Shown: positions 5,199-25,209 of the stretch, in pieces
Numbering within the stretch: the first letter of the stretch is position 1
Layout: each line of letters starts with the position of its first letter
From: Dechloromonas sp. HYN0024
Lineage (GTDB): Bacteria; Pseudomonadota; Gammaproteobacteria; Burkholderiales; Rhodocyclaceae
Assembly (NCBI RefSeq): GCF_003441615.1
Contig: NZ_CP031842.1
Span: 248,001-312,000 of the forward strand
Length of the DNA stretch: 64,000 nt
Reading direction: 5' to 3'
Position numbers and translations under genes: made by a program
Notes under the pieces: generated by a model
The model's input: only the letters and a program-made list of their open reading frames with translations
Told to the model about the DNA's origin: nothing
The model's database searches: none

Positions 5199-5260
5199 AA
5201 AAAAAGAAGCCCGCACGGGGCGGGCTTAAATCCATTTCTTGGAGGAGATGGAGGAGACAG
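5199..5260 (-). ncRNA. Predicted small RNA with two anti-Shine-Dalgarno CUCCUCC motifs
   Basis: A short minus-strand transcription unit is bounded by a sigma-70-like promoter (-35 TTGCGG at 5289-5294, 17-bp spacer, -10 CATAAT at 5266-5271) and an intrinsic terminator (stem AAGCCCGC/GCGGGCTT at 5207-5227, then seven U at 5199-5205). The predicted RNA is about 60 nt. Its 5' part contains CUCCUCCAUCUCCUCC, two copies of a motif complementary to ribosome binding sites, as in the CUCCUCC-type Hfq-associated sRNAs of Neisseria and alphaproteobacteria. It lies between the phasin gene, which has its own terminator, and the winged-helix gene. A 13-codon reading frame, MKSVSSISSKKWI, also spans it but would start upstream of the predicted RNA start. 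Confidence 0.6.
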
Positions 5261-5265
5261 ACTTC

Positions 5266-5294
5266 ATTATGCCCAGATCGATTGTGCACCGCAA
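5266..5294 (-). promoter_or_regulatory. Sigma-70-type promoter of the predicted small RNA
   Basis: Read on the minus strand, TTGCGG (5289-5294) is separated by exactly 17 bp from CATAAT (5266-5271), five of six matches to the -10 consensus. The expected start is near 5258-5260, just upstream of the CUCCUCC repeats. Confidence 0.5.
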
Positions 5295-5390
5295 CATCTT
5301 TTGTGTATCAAATTGTGACGAGGCCGATATGGGTAATTGAAAATGCCGGTAGTTGAAGGCATGGCCTGTATCCTGGCGATTAAACGTTAA

Positions 5391-5446: not shown

Positions 5447-5962
5447 TTACTTGGACTTCTTGGTGACGGCAGCCATGTTGGCCTGGGCAGCATCAGCAAA
5501 CTGCTTGGCAACGGTGTTCATGTTGCCGAAAGCCGAGTTGGCAGCAGCGATGGCGCTCTGGATCGCAGCAACAGCACCTTCCGAGCCAGCCGGAGCGGAC
5601 TTGGTGGCCATTTCAACCATACCGGCCATGGATTTCTGGAAGTCGCCGAACTGGGCTTCAACCATCTTGGCCAGATCCTGTTGGGTCTGGGCAGAGATTT
5701 CGTAGACCGAACGCGAGTAGGCAACGGCCTTCTCGACAGCCGGCTGGGCCAGGGCGGTCTGGGCGGCGAGGGCAGCCTTCGGGTCCTTGGCTTCCATGAC
5801 CGACTTGACGCCGGAAACGGTATCTTCCAGAGCGGCGCGGGCGGTGTTCAGGTTGAGGGCGGCGATGCGCTCGGCAGAAGCCAGGGCGGTGTTGGCAACA
5901 GACAGCAGGGAGTCAACGGTGGCTTTGTTGGCGGCGGTGAATTGTTCGGTGTTGATAGACAT
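5447..5962 (-). CDS. phaP: Phasin family protein (PHA granule coat)
   Basis: Phasins coat polyhydroxyalkanoate granules and control their number and size. The 171-residue Ala-rich, helical protein begins MSINTEQFTAANKATVDSLL and contains the betaproteobacterial phasin pattern (NLNTARAALEDT, YSRSVYEISAQTQQDL, NTVAKQFADAAQ) with a basic KKSK end; there is no signal peptide. The length fits the family. GGAG lies 7 bp before the ATG, and a TATACT -10-like box lies at 6002-6007. A PhaM homologue at 28988 supports PHA storage in this organism. Confidence 0.93.
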   Translation of the reverse strand: MSINTEQFTAANKATVDSLLSVANTALASAERIAALNLNTARAALEDTVSGVKSVMEAKDPKAALAAQTALAQPAVEKAVAYSRSVYEISAQTQQDLAKMVEAQFGDFQKSMAGMVEMATKSAPAGSEGAVAAIQSAIAAANSAFGNMNTVAKQFADAAQANMAAVTKKSK

Positions 5963-6112
5963 GTGTGTCTCCAGAAAAGGTTATCAGTGTGTTCGGAATT
6001 GAGTATAGCGCACTATTTGTAAAAATTGTGCACTGCAGCAATTTAAGTTGACTGCCACCTATCCGTTTGATTTCCTGTTGATTCCGGATTGCCCTTCGCT
6101 GGTCAGCCCAGC

Positions 6113-12926: not shown

Positions 12927-14006
12927 TCAATTGGCTCCGGCAGATTTTCCTGCCCATTTGCGTCGGTAGTGTACCGGTGCCATGCCCGTCCATTCGACAA
13001 AGGCCCGATAAAAAGCCGAGGTGTCGGCATAGCCGAGGTCGCTTGCCACCTTGGTAATCGGGTCACTGGTCTTGGTCAGTCTGGCCAGCGCCATGTCGCG
13101 GCGCAGGGCGTCCTTGATGCCGCGAAAGCTCGAGCCTTCTTCTTCCAGGCGGCGATGGATGGTGCGTGGCGAAAGATAGAGCCGGTCGGCGATTTGGTCG
13201 AGGCTCAGGGTGTCGGGTAGGGCGGCGCGCAGCAGGTCACGAACGCGGATGACCATTTCGCGGTCGCGCCGGTAGAGCGTCGTGATTTTGCCCGGGGCGC
13301 CATCGAGGAAAGTGCTCAGGGCTGCTTCGTCGCGACGGATGGGGAGTTCGAGGAGGTTGGCGTTGAAGCTGGCGATCAGGGTGCCGACACCACCGGGAAC
13401 GGTCGGTGCGAAACGCGAATCTTCGGTGAAGATGAGCGGGTAGTCTGCGGAATGGGCTGGTCGGCGGTAGGGGAAGATCACGCTGTCGAGTCCGATGCCG
13501 CGTCCGGCCAGCCAGCAGGAGAGGCCGTGCAGGAGACGCAGCAGCCACTCGAAGGCGAAGATGCGGCCGGGGTCGTCGGGGTTGTCGGCCAGCTTTCGGG
13601 TCTCGGCGATCACCAGTTCAGCACGCCCCTGGGCGCGGCGGACGCTGACCGCCAGATCGGGTAGTACGACATGCAGGAAGCGGCTGGCGCGGCTCAGCGC
13701 CTCGGCCAGCGTTGGTGCGCTCAGGCAGCCGCGGCAGAGAAACTCGAAACTGCCGAGGCGCATTGGCTGGGCGAAGAGGCCAAAGCCTTCGTCGTCGAGT
13801 TGGTGGTTCAGGCGGTTATAGAGCGCGGCGTAACGCTCGATGGGAATTCGGCTGGCGGTGTCTGCAATATCAATGTACGTGGCGCGCAGCAACGGCAGCG
13901 GATCGATCTGCCGACGTGCCAGCCCGGCCAGCATGCCGGTAACAAACCCCATGGCAACAGTGGCTTGCGTACGTGCTGGTGAATCTGGGTTGGTGCGGTG
14001 CAGCAT
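12927..14006 (-). CDS. AraC-family transcriptional regulator (OruR-like)
   Basis: The 359-residue protein has the Arabinose_bd-type N-terminal domain found in OruR/ArgR-like regulators and a C-terminal AraC helix-turn-helix domain. DNA-binding motifs include SLDQIADRLYLSPRTIHRRL (first helix-turn-helix) and ITKVASDLGYADTSAFYRAF followed by TGMAPVHYRRKW. It is divergent from icmF across 141 bp. The arrangement suggests it controls icmF in response to an acyl or amino-acid intermediate; the ligand is not evident. Confidence 0.9.
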   Translation of the reverse strand: MLHRTNPDSPARTQATVAMGFVTGMLAGLARRQIDPLPLLRATYIDIADTASRIPIERYAALYNRLNHQLDDEGFGLFAQPMRLGSFEFLCRGCLSAPTLAEALSRASRFLHVVLPDLAVSVRRAQGRAELVIAETRKLADNPDDPGRIFAFEWLLRLLHGLSCWLAGRGIGLDSVIFPYRRPAHSADYPLIFTEDSRFAPTVPGGVGTLIASFNANLLELPIRRDEAALSTFLDGAPGKITTLYRRDREMVIRVRDLLRAALPDTLSLDQIADRLYLSPRTIHRRLEEEGSSFRGIKDALRRDMALARLTKTSDPITKVASDLGYADTSAFYRAFVEWTGMAPVHYRRKWAGKSAGAN

Positions 14007-14147: not shown

Positions 14148-17100
14148 ATGACCGATCTTTCCGTTGCCAAGAAGCTTTCTCCGTACAAGCCGAAGAACAA
14201 GGTTCGTTTTGTTACGGCCGCCTCGCTGTTCGACGGCCATGATGCCTCGATCAATATCATGCGTCGCATCCTGCAATCGACCGGTTCCGAAGTGATTCAC
14301 CTCGGCCACAACCGCTCCGTGCAGGAAATCGTCAATGCCGCGCTGCAGGAAGATGTTCAGGGTATCTGCATCACCTCGTATCAGGGTGGCCACGTTGAGT
14401 TCTTCAAGTACATGATTGACCTGCTCAAGGCCAATGGTGGCGCCAACATCAAGGTCTTCGGCGGCGGTGGCGGGGTGATCGTGCCGTCCGAGATCAAGGA
14501 ACTGCACGAGTACGGCGTGACGCGCATCTACGCGCCGGAAGATGGTGTCCATATGGGCCTGCAGGGCATGATCAACGAAGTCGTGCAGAAGTCCGATTTC
14601 GATGTCGCTGATGAAGGCGTGCCCAGCGCCGAGCAGGCTCTGGCCGGCTTGAAGGCAGGTGACAAGCGTCTGCTCTCGCGGATCATCACCCTGCTCGAAA
14701 ATGGCGAAGCGCCCGCGCTCAAGGAGCCGCTGCTCAAGGCCGCCGCTGCCCTCGAAACGCCGGTCCTCGGCATTACCGGCACGGGCGGCGCCGGCAAGTC
14801 CTCGCTGACCGACGAACTGGTCCGTCGCTTCCGTCTTGATCAGGGCGATACGGTCAAGATTGGCCTGATCTCCATCGATCCGTCGCGCAAGCGCACCGGC
14901 GGCGCCCTGCTCGGCGACCGCATCCGCATGAATGCCATCGAGCATCCGAACATTTTCATGCGCTCTTTGGCCACCCGCGACACCGGGTCCGAAATTTCCG
15001 TCGCCCTCCCTGAAGTGATTGCCGCCTGCAAACTGGCCGGTTTCGATCTGGTTATCGTCGAAACCTCAGGGATTGGCCAGGGTAATGCCGCCATCGTTCC
15101 CTTTGTCGATCTGTCGCTGTACGTCATGACGCCGGAGTTCGGCGCAGCCTCGCAGCTCGAAAAGATCGACATGCTCGACTTCGCCGATTTTGTCGCCATC
15201 AACAAGTTTGATCGCAAGGGTGCCGAGGATGCGCTGCGTGATGTGCGCAAGCAATACCAGCGCAACCGTGAAGCCTTTACGACGCCGACCGAAGACATGC
15301 CGGTGTTCGGTACCCAGGCCGCCCGTTTTAACGACGATGGCGTGACTGCCCTGTATCAGGCGCTGGTCCCGGTACTGTCCGAAAAAGGCCTGAAGCTGAA
15401 GGCGGGCCAGTTGCCCATCGTTACTGTCAAGCAGTCGTCCACCCAGCGCGCCATCGTGCCGGCCCAGCGCGTCCGCTATCTGGCTGAAATCGCCGATTCC
15501 GTGCGCGGCTACCATGCCCATACAGCCGAACAAGTGAAGATCGCCCGCGAACGCCAGTCCCTGCGTGTCGCCAAGAGCCTTTTCGCCGATTGCGACAAGC
15601 CGACTGCCGATTTCGACGAAATGGTCGCCTTCAAGGATGCCCAGCAGGACCCCAAGGCCAAGAAGCTGCTCGACATGTGGCCAGCGACGGTTGAAGCCTA
15701 TGCCGGCGACGAGTACGTCGTGAAGATTCGCGACAAGGAAATCCGCACCCGGCTGACCGGCCTGTCGCTGTCCGGCACCAAGATCCGCAAGGTCATCCTG
15801 CCGACCTTTGGCGATGATGGCGAAACCCTGCGCTTCCTGATGCGTGAAAACGTTCCCGGCTCCTTCCCCTACACTGCCGGCGTTTTCGCCTTCAAGCGAG
15901 AAGGTGAAGACCCGACCCGGATGTTCGCCGGTGAAGGCGATGCCTTCCGCACCAACCGCCGCTTCAAGCGCGTCTCCGAAGGCATGCCGGCCCATCGCCT
16001 GTCCACCGCCTTCGACTCGGTCACGCTCTACGGCTGCGACCCCGACGAGCGTCCGGACATCTACGGCAAGATCGGCAACTCCGGCGTTTCCATCGCTACC
16101 CTCGACGACCTCAAGGTCCTCTACGATGGCTTCGACCTGCTCGCTCCGAGCACCTCGGTATCGATGACCATCAACGGTCCGGCGCCGATCATCCTGGCCT
16201 GTTTCTTCAACACCGCCATCGACCAGCAGATGGTCAAGTTCGAAAAGGACAACGGTCGTCAGCCGACCGAAGACGAAGCCCAGAAAATCCGCGAATGGAC
16301 GCTCAAGACCGTCCGTGGCACGGTGCAGGCCGACATTCTCAAGGAAGACCAGGGTCAGAACACCTGTATCTTCAGTACCGAATTCGCCCTCAAGATGATG
16401 GGCGACATTCAGGAGTTCTTCGTGCACAACCAGGTGCAGAACTTCTACTCGGTGTCGATCTCCGGTTATCACATCGCTGAAGCCGGCGCCAACCCGATCA
16501 GCCAGCTTGCCTTCACGCTCTCCAACGGCTTCACCTACGTTGAAAGCTACCTGGCGCGCGGCATGAAGATCGACGACTTCGCGCCCAACCTGTCCTTCTT
16601 CTTCAGCAACGGCATGGACCCGGAATACTCGGTGATCGGCCGCGTTGCCCGCCGCATCTGGGCCATCGCCATGAAGAACAAGTACGGCGCCAACGAGCGC
16701 AGCCAGAAGCTGAAGTACCACATCCAGACCTCCGGCCGCTCGCTGCATGCCCAGGAAATGGACTTCAACGACATCCGCACGACGCTGCAGGCGCTGATCG
16801 CCATCTACGACAACTGCAACTCCCTGCACACCAACGCCTACGACGAAGCGATCACCACGCCGACCGAGGAAAGTGTACGCCGCGCCATGGCCATCCAGCT
16901 CATCATCAACCGTGAGTGGGGCGTCGCCAAGAACGAGAATCCGAACCAGGGCGCTTTCGTTATCGACGAACTGACCGATCTGGTCGAAGAAGCGGTGATG
17001 AAGGAATTCGAAGCCATCGCCTCACGCGGCGGCGTCCTCGGTGCCATGGAAACCGGCTACCAGCGCGGCAAGATTCAGGAAGAGTCGATGGTTTACGAGC

Positions 17101-18912: not shown

Positions 18913-19056
18913 TTATACGGCGGACAGGTGCATACACTGGCTCGCAAAGTGAGAGACTGTCCGGGTGCTGCAAGGTCTGTGTAAGGCAGCAGCCCCCACA
19001 ATGATTCAAACGAACGTTAGACCGCGGACAACGAGACGCGGCGGAGGAGACTAAGA

Positions 19057-21024
19057 ATGCCCACGCAGGCGAATTTCGCCGCGCTGGATGGTTTGCATAC
19101 CTTCCCGCGGCTACTGTTTCATCACGCAAGCATCCGGCCGAATGCGCCGGCCATGCGCGAAAAATATCTCGGTATCTGGCAGACCTGGACGTGGGCCGAC
19201 GTTGCCGAACGCGTCCGTGCGCTGGCCTGTGGGTTGTCTTCGCTCGGTTTCAAGCGTGGCGACAACCTGGCCATCATCGGTGACAACCGGCCGCATCTTT
19301 ACATGATGATGACGGCTGCCCAGTGTCTGGGTGGTGTGCCGGTGCCGCTGTATCAGGATGCCGTGGCCAACGAAATGCTCTTCGTCCTGCAGGATGCCGG
19401 CATTCGCTTTGTCGTCGTCGAGGATCAGGAGCAGGTCGACAAGATGCTGGAAATCAGCGATCAGGTCGGTACCCTTGAGCACATCATTTACGACGATCCG
19501 CGCGGCATGCGGCATTACACCCAGCCCTTCCTGCACGACATCCATGAACTCATGGAAATGGGGCGGATTCATGATCGCAACCATACGTCCTTCCTGAATG
19601 CGGAAGTCGAGCTCGGCCATTTCGACGACACCTCGGTCATGCTCTACACCTCGGGCACCACCGGCAAGCCGAAGGGCGTCTGCCAGACCCACGCGGCCTT
19701 CATCGCGGCCGCCCAGGGTGGGGTCCAGGTCGACAGGCTGGACGCCGATGGCGACATCCTTTCCTATCTGCCCATGGCCTGGGTGGGTGATCACCTGTTC
19801 TCCTACGCCCAGGCGCTGGTTGCCGGTTTCACCATCAATTGTCCGGAGTCTGGCGACACGGTCATGAGCGACCTGCGCGAAATCGGCCCGACCTGCTATT
19901 TTGCCCCGCCCCGCGTTTTCGAAAGCCTGCTGACCTCGGTGATGATCCGCATGGAGGACGCGGGCAAGATCAAACAGAAAATGTTCCACCACTTCATGGC
20001 CGTGGCCAAGCGTTGCGGTTCCGATATCCTCGATGGCAAGTCGGTCGGATTGGCTGACCGCTTCCAGTACTGGCTCGGCAACCTGCTGGTCTATGGCCCG
20101 CTGCGCAACGTTCTCGGCATGAGCCGCATCAAGGTCGCCTACACGGCCGGCGCGGCGATTGGGCCGGAGCTGTTCCGCTTCTACCGTTCGATGGGCATCA
20201 ATCTCAAACAGTTCTATGGACAGACCGAAACCTGCGCCTATGTCTGCCTGCAGCCGGATGGGCAGATCAAGTTCGATTCGGTCGGCCAGCCGGCGCCGGG
20301 CGTCGAGATCAAGATTGCCGACAACGGCGAGGTACTGGTCAAGGGGCCGATGCTGCTCAAGGAGTATTACAAGCGCCCAGATGCCACGGCCGAATCGTTG
20401 AATGCCGATGGTTACTTCATGACCGGCGATGCCGGCTTCCTCGATGAAGACGGTCACCTGAAGATCATTGACCGGGCCAAGGACGTCGGCAAGCTGACCA
20501 ACGGGGCGATGTTCGCGCCCAACTACATCGAGAACAAGCTGAAGTTCTTCCAGCATGTGAAGGAGGCCGTCTGTTTCGGTCACGACCGCGACATGGTCTG
20601 CGCCTTCATCAACATCGATGTCAGTGCCGTCGGCAACTGGGCCGAACGTCGCGGCATCGCCTACTCGGGTTACGCCGACCTGGCCGGCAAGCCGGAAGTG
20701 CTGGAACTGCTCCGTGAATGCGTCGAACAGGTCAATGCCGATCTGGTGCACGACAGCATGGTGGCCGACTCGCAGATTCATCGCTTCCTGGTCCTGCACA
20801 AGGAACTCGATCCGGATGACGACGAACTGACGCGGACGCGCAAGGTGCGTCGCAATTTCGTGGCTGAAAAATACAAGGTGCTGATCGATGCGCTCTATGA
20901 GGGCAAGGCGAATCAGTTCATCGAAACCGAGGTCAAGTTCGAGGATGGCCGGCGCGGCAAGGTGTCGGCCGACCTCAGTATCATCGATGCGAAGACCTTT
21001 CCGATCGTGAAAAAGGCTGCCTGA
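19057..21024 (+). CDS. AMP-dependent long-chain-type acyl-CoA synthetase
   Basis: The enzyme activates a carboxylic acid with ATP and CoA through an acyl-adenylate. The 655-residue ANL-superfamily protein has P-loop YTSGTTGKPKG near residue 197, YGQTETCAYVC (motif A5), and the hinge-containing YFMTGDAGFLDEDGHLKIIDR. The length and C-terminal extension match the FadD15-type group often placed with LIV transporters. The ribosome binding site is GGAGGAGAC (19043-19051), exactly complementary to the predicted small RNA at 5199-5260. It starts the operon with livG 2 bp downstream. The true substrate (fatty, branched or aromatic acid) cannot be read from sequence. Confidence 0.92.
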   Translation: MPTQANFAALDGLHTFPRLLFHHASIRPNAPAMREKYLGIWQTWTWADVAERVRALACGLSSLGFKRGDNLAIIGDNRPHLYMMMTAAQCLGGVPVPLYQDAVANEMLFVLQDAGIRFVVVEDQEQVDKMLEISDQVGTLEHIIYDDPRGMRHYTQPFLHDIHELMEMGRIHDRNHTSFLNAEVELGHFDDTSVMLYTSGTTGKPKGVCQTHAAFIAAAQGGVQVDRLDADGDILSYLPMAWVGDHLFSYAQALVAGFTINCPESGDTVMSDLREIGPTCYFAPPRVFESLLTSVMIRMEDAGKIKQKMFHHFMAVAKRCGSDILDGKSVGLADRFQYWLGNLLVYGPLRNVLGMSRIKVAYTAGAAIGPELFRFYRSMGINLKQFYGQTETCAYVCLQPDGQIKFDSVGQPAPGVEIKIADNGEVLVKGPMLLKEYYKRPDATAESLNADGYFMTGDAGFLDEDGHLKIIDRAKDVGKLTNGAMFAPNYIENKLKFFQHVKEAVCFGHDRDMVCAFINIDVSAVGNWAERRGIAYSGYADLAGKPEVLELLRECVEQVNADLVHDSMVADSQIHRFLVLHKELDPDDDELTRTRKVRRNFVAEKYKVLIDALYEGKANQFIETEVKFEDGRRGKVSADLSIIDAKTFPIVKKAA

Positions 21025-23862: not shown

Positions 23863-23887
23863 TTGTATTAACTGGAGGAGACATTCA

Positions 23888-25209
23888 ATGATCAAAAAAT
23901 TCAAACCTGCTGTTGCCGTCGCTGCGGTATCCATGGCCATGCTGTCCCAGTTTGCCGTGGCTGCCGAAGAACAGTTCTTTCCGCTGATTGACTACCGGGT
24001 CGGTCCTTATGGCTCCAACGGCCAGGCCTTCTATGGTGGTTTCATCGACTACCTCAACTACGTCAACATCAAGGAAAAGGGCGTCAACGGCGTCCAGATG
24101 ACCTACGAAGAGTGCGAAACGGAATACAACAACGCCAAGGGCGTCGAGTGCTACGAGCGCCTCAAGAGCAAAGCTGCAAAGTCGGCCGGCCCGCTGCACA
24201 CGATGTCGACCGGCATCTCCTACGCCCTGATCGACAAGTCGGCTCAGGACAAGCTGCCCTTGGCCATGATGGGCTACGGCCGCACCGATGCGGTTGACGG
24301 CTCGGTCTTCCCCTACGCCTTCCCCTAGTGACGACGTACCAGATGCAGGCCTCGGCTATCGTCAAGTTCCTCAAGGACAAGAATGGCGGCAGCCTAGCTG
24401 GCAAGAAGATCGTTTATCTGTATCACGACTCGGCCTATGGCAAGGAAGCGATCGTTGCGCTGAATGCCGAAGCCTCGCTCAACAAGTTCGAGATGGTGCA
24501 GATTCCGGTTGCCCACCCGGGTAACGAGCAGGGCGCGCAGTGGCTCAAGATTCGCCAGGAAAAGCCAGATTTCGTTATTTTCTGGGGCTGGGGCGTGATG
24601 AACCAGACGGCGCTCAAGGCTGCCCAGAAGGTCGGCTTCCCGCGGGAAAAGATGATCGGTTCGTGGTGGACCGGTTCGGAAGAAGACGTCGTGCCGGCCG
24701 GCGATGCCGCCAAGGGCTATATGGCTGCAACGTGGAACGTCGCCGGGACGCAGGTGCCGGTCATCGCCGATATCGAGAAGGTGGTTTACGGTGCCGGCAA
24801 GGGCAATATGCAGGACAAGACGAAGATCGGGACCATCCTCTATAACCGTGGCGTATCCGCTGCCGTCCTGTCGGTCGAGGCCATTCGCAAGGGCCAGGAA
24901 AAATATGGCAAGGGCAAGGCACTCAATGGCGAGCAGACCCGCTGGGCGCTGGAAAATCTCAACATCACCGATGCCCGTCTGAAGACGCTGGGTGCCACCG
25001 ATCTGTTGCCGGAAATCAAGACCTCCTGCGACAACCACGAAGGCTCTGGCAAGGTGAAAATCCAGCAGTGGGATGGTGCCAAGTGGGTACCGGTGTCCGG
25101 TTGGATCGAGGGTAACAAGGGCCTCATCCACCCGCTCTTCCAGGCTTCTGCCAAGCAGTACGCCAAGGAAAAGGGCATCACGCCGCGCGATTGCTCCAAG
25201 GAAAAATGA
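23888..25209 (+). pseudogene. LIV-type ABC transporter substrate-binding protein, frameshifted
   Basis: A periplasmic Peripla_BP_6-type receptor of about 440 residues is split by one missing base. The first part has a signal peptide (AVAVAAVSMAMLSQFAVAAEE) ending at Ala-Ala and stops at 24328 after SVFPYAFP. The second part resumes at once with TTYQMQASAIVKFLKDKNGG. Four C at 24323-24326 should be five; adding one C gives FPLVTTYQMQ and a continuous protein. Both halves keep strong coding character, so either the sequence is in error or the break is recent. The ribosome binding site is GGAGGAGAC (23874-23882), complementary to the predicted small RNA. It belongs with livGHM and livF of this operon. 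Confidence 0.85.

Follow-up and report, generated by a model that had tools for sequence, protein, structure and literature searches.

The window analyzed here, a stretch of 64,000 nucleotides from the one-contig, 3.26 Mb genome of Dechloromonas sp. HYN0024, carries on its minus strand a compact unit that reads from 5294 to 5199 and lies downstream of a phasin gene. Its features, together with those of the predicted target genes, are:

5199..5227, minus strand: intrinsic terminator, stem 5227-5207 with a U tract to 5199 (sequence and terminator scan)
5201..5259, minus strand: RF02278 sRNA with two hairpins, about 60 nt (cmscan and predicted fold; 5' end inferred at 5259)
5241..5247, minus strand: anti-Shine-Dalgarno (anti-SD) site 2, CUCCUCC, within the first hairpin, 5 of its 7 nt single-stranded in the predicted fold (sequence and RF02278 alignment)
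5250..5259, minus strand: anti-SD site 1, UGUCUCCUCC, its first 7 nt single-stranded in the predicted fold (sequence)
5266..5271, minus strand: -10 element CATAAT (sequence)
5289..5294, minus strand: -35 element TTGCGG, within the PhaR-type palindrome (sequence)
5281..5297, minus strand: PhaR-type palindrome ATGTTGCGGTGCACAAT, two mismatches to the Cupriavidus necator consensus YTKNTGCRNYGCANMAR, conserved in relatives
5447..5962, minus strand: phasin gene (PF09361, Pfam E 8.7e-27), on the same strand as the sRNA and upstream of it
6025..6041, minus strand: PhaR-type box of the phasin gene, TTGCTGCAGTGCACAAT, one mismatch to YTKNTGCRNYGCANMAR
19043..19051, plus strand: predicted target site GGAGGAGAC, 9 nt, SD of an acyl-CoA synthetase ORF at 19057-21024 (PF00501)
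23873..23883, plus strand: predicted target site TGGAGGAGACA, matching the 5' end of the RNA over 11 nt and forming the SD of the LIV-binding-protein ORF at 23888 (PF13458)

The elements described by a first-pass annotation, namely a TTGCGG/CATAAT promoter with a 17-nt spacer, two CUCCUCC stretches and a terminator with seven U in a unit of about 60 nt, are all found on the minus strand. The CATAAT hexamer is followed by six nucleotides, then by UGUCUCCUCCAUCUCCUCC and its continuation, a hairpin, a G+C-rich terminator stem and seven T at 5205-5199; the RNA probably starts at T5259, and the molecule from 5201 to 5259 has a predicted folding energy of -19.2 kcal/mol. The terminator scan returned 12 terminator-like sites between 4000 and 7000 against 3.8 expected, with the 5227-5207 stem ranking first in the list, and assigned the phasin gene a terminator-like hairpin of its own at 5412-5400. 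TTGCGG is a poor -35 element, and a sigma-70 scan called no promoter between 4000 and 7000. The abundance of CTCCTCC in the window was rejected as evidence, as its 12 occurrences do not rise above shuffled sequences (9.0 expected; 20 of 100 shuffles reach 12).

Membership of the RF02278 family

A cmscan search of the window against all of Rfam yielded a single match above cut-off, at 5201-5259 on the minus strand, to RF02278, "Betaproteobacteria toxic small RNA" (55.1 bits against a gathering threshold of 50, E 2.4e-8), with the model spanned in full from 1 to 64. Given this E-value, the unit lies far beyond chance, and it displays the two hairpins, the second being the intrinsic terminator, and the CU-rich anti-SD stretches of that family. 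The window sRNA is a new copy of a described RNA family. Profile searches recovered RF02278 at E<=1e-3 in 141 of 150 genomes of Rhodocyclaceae, the window's GTDB family (above cut-off in 112), and in 128 of 200 genomes of its GTDB order (above cut-off in 75). Thus, the stand-alone anti-SD RNA with its own promoter and terminator, as originally proposed, is borne out, whereas the relatives named for it, from Neisseria and alphaproteobacteria, formed an incomplete list that missed the described betaproteobacterial family. The source genome has a second copy at 564492-564555 (64.1 bits), situated between what we take to be coq7/osmC-like and rplM/rpsI-like ORFs.

Published work refers to the family as toxic sRNA, double-hairpin RNA, NcS27 and S17 (PMC5688073, PMC4603805, PMC7011215, PMC11722255, PMC10987360), its members including ncS03, ncS05, ncS27 and ncS62 of Burkholderia cenocepacia and Hsnc059, Hsnc063, Hsnc086 and Hsnc107 of Herbaspirillum seropedicae (PMC5688073, PMC7011215). 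Its function was called unknown when these RNAs were mapped in B. cenocepacia (PMC4603805), and since then only some members, NcS27 and S17, have been studied. Like the double-hairpin RNAs, the window sRNA combines a covariance match, two hairpins, the UGUCUCCUCC 5' end and a terminator, and for both, targets are predicted at the ribosome-binding sites of transport and carbon-metabolism genes (PMC5688073, PMC7011215). Bordetella pertussis S17, which its authors regard, together with S17S, as a homologue of the RF02278 RNAs, is reported to be Bvg- and Hfq-dependent; its predicted sites of action are likewise ribosome-binding sites, many belonging to transporter genes, with direct repression demonstrated for BP2158 (PMC11722255). 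S17 also adjoins coq7 (PMC11722255), the same neighbor as that of the second copy in the source genome. S17S is processed from the longer S17L, whereas the window copy has instead a predicted promoter directly at the RNA start.

Ribosome-binding sites as predicted targets

The claim that the RNA is exactly complementary to the SDs of the ORFs at 19057 and 23888 holds, with GGAGGAGAC confirmed as the SD of both. Among the 12 GGAGGAG sites of the window, only these two SDs, besides the complement of the sRNA gene itself, are followed by an ATG at a distance of about 7 nt. Across the source genome, GGAGGAG-N5..11-ATG has 36 matches against 14 in a reversed control, and 8 of the 36 continue with AC and 6 with ACA. 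The eight GGAGGAGAC SDs precede genes for two AMP-binding synthetases, the LIV-binding protein, two DctP proteins, a chalcone-isomerase-like protein, a tautomerase and a PilZ protein. Over the 150 Rhodocyclaceae genomes, GGAGGAGACA-N2..8-ATG, in which the ATG need not be a real start, has 528 matches (127 genomes), at least 9 of them contributed by the complement of the sRNA gene itself (9 of 140 loci examined), as against 188 (97 genomes) and 99 (72 genomes) when ACA is replaced by AAC and CAA, respectively.

Separately, we observed that the LIV-binding-protein gene (23888-25209, plus strand) is interrupted: its frame stops at 24326-24328 and the remainder, 24328-25209, lies in another frame, with the two PF13458 fragments directly adjoining each other along the profile. 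This represents either a pseudogene or an assembly error, and it counts against the regulatory reading proposed below.

The PhaR-type box and its conservation

The left arm of ATGTTGCGGTGCACAAT is the -35 element of the sRNA promoter, the palindrome overlapping both the -35 and the spacer, and it contains the exact core TGCGGTGCA at 5285-5293 on the minus strand. YTKNTGCRNYGCANMAR is the palindromic consensus deduced for PhaR, the phasin regulator and PHB-granule sensor of C. necator, with up to three mismatches allowed (PMC12849132); with two mismatches and an exact core, the predicted operator falls within that published limit. Taken alone, the box would be weak evidence; by chance, 17.4 boxes with two or fewer mismatches are expected per 64 kb when each palindrome is counted on both strands. 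The source genome encodes a PhaR protein (PF07879, E 5.8e-29, G000:C1:1945452-1945631, minus strand). Boxes with an exact core and at most two mismatches occur within 250 nt upstream of four of its five above-cut-off phasin genes, and two such boxes precede phaR itself; none was found within 250 nt upstream of its three phaC genes. A motif of the form TG[N]TGC[N]3GCAA lies inside the DNase footprint of PhbF of Herbaspirillum (PMC3206438). The TTGYNNTGCACAA motif alone was rejected as a marker of the PhaR regulon, because several of the eight exact sites examined elsewhere in the genome are intragenic. One-mismatch TTGYNNTGCACAA palindromes, with both strands matching, at G000:C1:347627-347642 and 3009426-3009440 are possible further PhaR sites. 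Within the window, a one-mismatch PhaR-type palindrome at 13990-14006 lies about 140 nt upstream of the ORF at 14148, which is presumably mutase-like.

We then considered the core TGCRNYGCA across the family. From 208 RF02278 copies, 4 were dropped and 160 nt upstream were scanned in the remaining 204; a further 14 copies, of which 13 were kept, enlarged the counts for phaR+ genomes of other families and for phaR- genomes. In the dropped copies (L012, L016, L137 and L228 of the first set, L401 of the second) the start motif of the RNA was not located at the assumed position, which for L012 and L016, both beginning at a contig end, was an incorrect one. The exact core is found upstream of 115 of 138 copies in phaR+ Rhodocyclaceae, these copies being the strongest RF02278 matches listed minus ten (shuffle mean 4.3; downstream control 2 of 136). 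In other phaR+ families it precedes 27 of 42 copies (shuffle 1.2; downstream 6 of 42; enlarged set 33 of 54), as against 1 of 24 copies in phaR- genomes (shuffle 0.3; downstream 0 of 24; enlarged set 1 of 25), where the copies outside Rhodocyclaceae are a selection among the order-level matches listed, phaR- genomes were picked deliberately, and phaR- denotes no PF07879 match in the genome, some of these genomes being drafts. In offset windows at phaR+ loci, the core is seen at -160..0 in 148 of 192, at -320..-160 in 60 of 192, and in 0-8% elsewhere. Copies in the S17 context (coq7/osmC/rplM) have the core in 106 of 129 phaR+ cases and in 0 of 7 phaR- cases. Outside Rhodocyclaceae, 12 of 12 sampled phaR+ families had the core at one or more copies, versus 0 of 10 phaR- families (Fisher 1.5e-6), with f10 and f43 being counted in both groups.

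The predicted operator is conserved among relatives and missing from genomes lacking phaR, with two exceptions in Rhodocyclaceae drafts in which no phaR was detected: the exact core is present in G330 (90% complete), and a box with one mismatch in G211 (96% complete). Conversely, the exact core is missing upstream of 23 of the 138 phaR+ Rhodocyclaceae copies and 21 of the 54 other phaR+ copies, and in multi-copy genomes the additional RF02278 copies often lack it. The association of the core with phaR appears only partly independent, because phaR presence follows lineage. The contrasts within f10 and f43 were rejected as weak support, given G142, a phaR+ genome without the core upstream of the sRNA, and G088, also phaR+, with only a distant 4-mismatch site. 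In the phaR- lineages represented by L198, L200, L201, L206, L208 and L210, the rplM-linked sRNA is retained with an upstream region devoid of the box, and a TATTAGANAAT-like -10 is present upstream of it in four of the six loci.

Two promoter architectures can be distinguished. In 35 Rhodocyclaceae copies the core begins at -34/-33, overlapping the -35, and a -10-like hexamer (A2, T6 and at most three mismatches to TATAAT) lies 13 nt past the core in 29 of the 37 Rhodocyclaceae copies of the window's promoter class. A conserved promoter and terminator in relatives, the lack of which the first-pass annotation had named as grounds for abandoning its reading, were looked for and found. In 80 of 130 occurrences the core is instead situated at -111..-77, mostly in copies of the S17-context class and often just upstream of another TTGC; this position would fit a longer precursor, as reported for S17L, the promoter of which is given as TTGCAT, 17 bp, TACTAT (PMC11722255). 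Adjacency to a phasin gene was rejected as a functional link: with about 0.5-1.5 kb searched on each side, a phasin was found near only 1 of the 37 Rhodocyclaceae copies with the operator at the RNA start, namely that of the window, and it lies about 2 kb away at the related locus L352 and about 5 kb away at L272. Hence, the tie between carbon uptake and storage suggested by the first-pass annotation draws support from the conserved PhaR-type operator and not from the phasin neighborhood, leaving its interpretation as a whole partly supported.

A proposed PHB-responsive switch and its alternatives

Together, these observations make it quite likely that the window encodes an RF02278 anti-SD sRNA under a PhaR operator, which is derepressed by PHB and blocks the translation of uptake and acyl-CoA synthetase genes. 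We propose that when there is little PHB, PhaR would occupy the palindrome over the -35 and spacer, repressing the sRNA along with the phasin genes and phaR. As PHB granules form, PhaR would be titrated, and phasins and sRNA, the latter probably transcribed from 5259, would be made together. The UGUCUCCUCC end and the CUCCUCC of the first hairpin might then pair with SDs reading GGAGGAGACA and block translation of mRNAs for substrate-binding proteins (LIV, DctP) and acyl-CoA synthetases, including the ORFs at 19057 and 23888, such that carbon import and activation would be restrained during storage. The sign of the control, i.e. repression, is less sure because C. necator PhaR has also been reported as an activator, of phaP3 (PMC12849132). 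The reported Bvg and Hfq dependence of B. pertussis S17, in a paper that never uses the word PhaR (PMC11722255), also speaks against this reading.

Several other explanations deserve consideration. That this is an ordinary RF02278 sRNA with a plain sigma-70 promoter, and that the TGCA palindrome reflects no more than a variant -35 together with chance or the background of the lineage, appears improbable: although TTGC doubles as the left half of the -35, a box with at most two mismatches is often expected by chance, and many extra copies in other families lack it, the right half-site YGCA falls in the spacer, where it has no sigma-70 role, and is conserved all the same. Moreover, the enrichment stands far above that in shuffles, offset windows and phaR- genomes, and most boxes in the S17 context sit 77-111 nt before the 5' end of the RNA. 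The fact that phaR presence tracks lineage would allow the box to be bound by some other transcription factor, one with a TGCA-type palindrome whose occurrence in lineages that make PHB is coincidental. Such a factor is highly improbable, given that the same box is present at four of five phasin genes and phaR of the source genome and fits the C. necator PhaR consensus, the Herbaspirillum PhbF footprint motif and the EMSA-tested mmgR box of Sinorhizobium meliloti. The notion of a short-peptide gene or a 3'-UTR fragment of the phasin mRNA, which might be raised by the position of the element, on the strand of the phasin gene and downstream of it, and by a 101-aa GTG ORF running across it, is barely tenable in the face of the terminator-like hairpin of the phasin gene, the promoter carried by the unit itself, the RF02278 covariance match and the lack of a phasin in the roughly 0.5-1.5 kb searched on each side of the other 36 copies of the class.

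It is also conceivable, albeit unlikely, that PhaR controls the sRNA but with the aim of a general damping of growth and translation, a "toxic" sRNA for shutdown in starvation, rather than of controlling uptake. The family is named after growth inhibition in E. coli, overexpression of NcS27 slowed growth (PMC5688073), and a review has NcS27 regulating a shutdown of metabolism under nutrient deprivation (PMC10987360). Nevertheless, five of the eight GGAGGAGAC SDs in the source genome precede uptake or acyl-CoA genes, and the chalcone-isomerase-like target is directly upstream of one such gene, with only the tautomerase and PilZ genes remaining.

This proposed circuit has a parallel in MmgR (alpha-r8, RF00519) of S. 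meliloti, a short Hfq-dependent sRNA repressed by PhaR/AniA via a promoter palindrome (PMC12542648, PMC8401924); purified PhaR binds the mmgR promoter in EMSA (PMC12542648). The mmgR box ATTGTGCACCGCAGCAT and the window box ATTGTGCACCGCAACAT differ at one of 17 positions. However, MmgR belongs to another, alphaproteobacterial Rfam family and has a reported effect on phasin levels; homology of the window sRNA to it was rejected, the RF00519 score being 15.3 bits against a gathering threshold of 41. Hence, we suggest that the window sRNA works like MmgR without being a member of its family. The phaP1 gene of C. necator, which is PhaR-controlled, shares with the window sRNA the operator consensus and its position in the promoter (PMC12849132), but is a protein-coding target whereas the window unit specifies an sRNA.

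The PhaR-type operator at RF02278 promoters is a new result: among open-licence papers in PMC we found none linking RF02278 to PhaR, a word that is absent from the main text of the four papers found to mention RF02278 (PMC4603805, PMC5688073, PMC7011215, PMC11722255). One of these describes an upstream motif shared by three of four homologues, with no regulator named in that description, and reports that in glucose medium ncS03, ncS05 and ncS27 of B. cenocepacia rise 8.0-, 6.9- and 4.3-fold, respectively (PMC5688073); the words PHB and phasin are likewise absent from it. This rise would fit a release from PhaR. We consider it likely that, across Betaproteobacteria, PhaR places the RF02278 family as a whole under the control of PHB granules as one arm of carbon regulation, in which both stand-alone and S17 copies are derepressed with the phasins and silence uptake and acyl-CoA-activation genes with GGAGGAGACA SDs. 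If true, Betaproteobacteria would have their own equivalent of PhaR-MmgR, resting on another RNA family, and the reported induction in glucose medium would be explained. With the conserved predicted operator, the family would have stored PHB as its defined input, with the testable logic that uptake and acyl-CoA activation go down when storage is on. On this view, carbon uptake should be wrongly set in PHB mutants by way of the RF02278 RNA, which the literature searched does not consider from this angle. The predicted operator extends from Rhodocyclaceae as far as Burkholderia and Cupriavidus, genera of applied interest as PHB producers.

A scan of GTDB genomes by pattern alone, GGAGGAGACA-N12..42-TGCRNYGCA, returned at least 119 stretches. 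Among the matches listed, and with the split being our own assignment, a terminator-like sequence follows the pattern in 57 of 66 betaproteobacterial stretches versus 0 of 53 others, and the gap is 24-25 in 42 of those 57. Eight alphaproteobacterial stretches that were scanned matched neither RF00519 nor RF02278, while 14 of 18 named betaproteobacterial stretches tested passed RF02278, including those of Zoogloea, Azonexus, Cupriavidus, Massilia, Burkholderia, Paraburkholderia, Caballeronia and Janthinobacterium. As a separate observation, the locus L097 (G241:C1:3304900-3310000) contains five RF02278 copies in about 3.5 kb, four of which each have their own PhaR-type box at -34.
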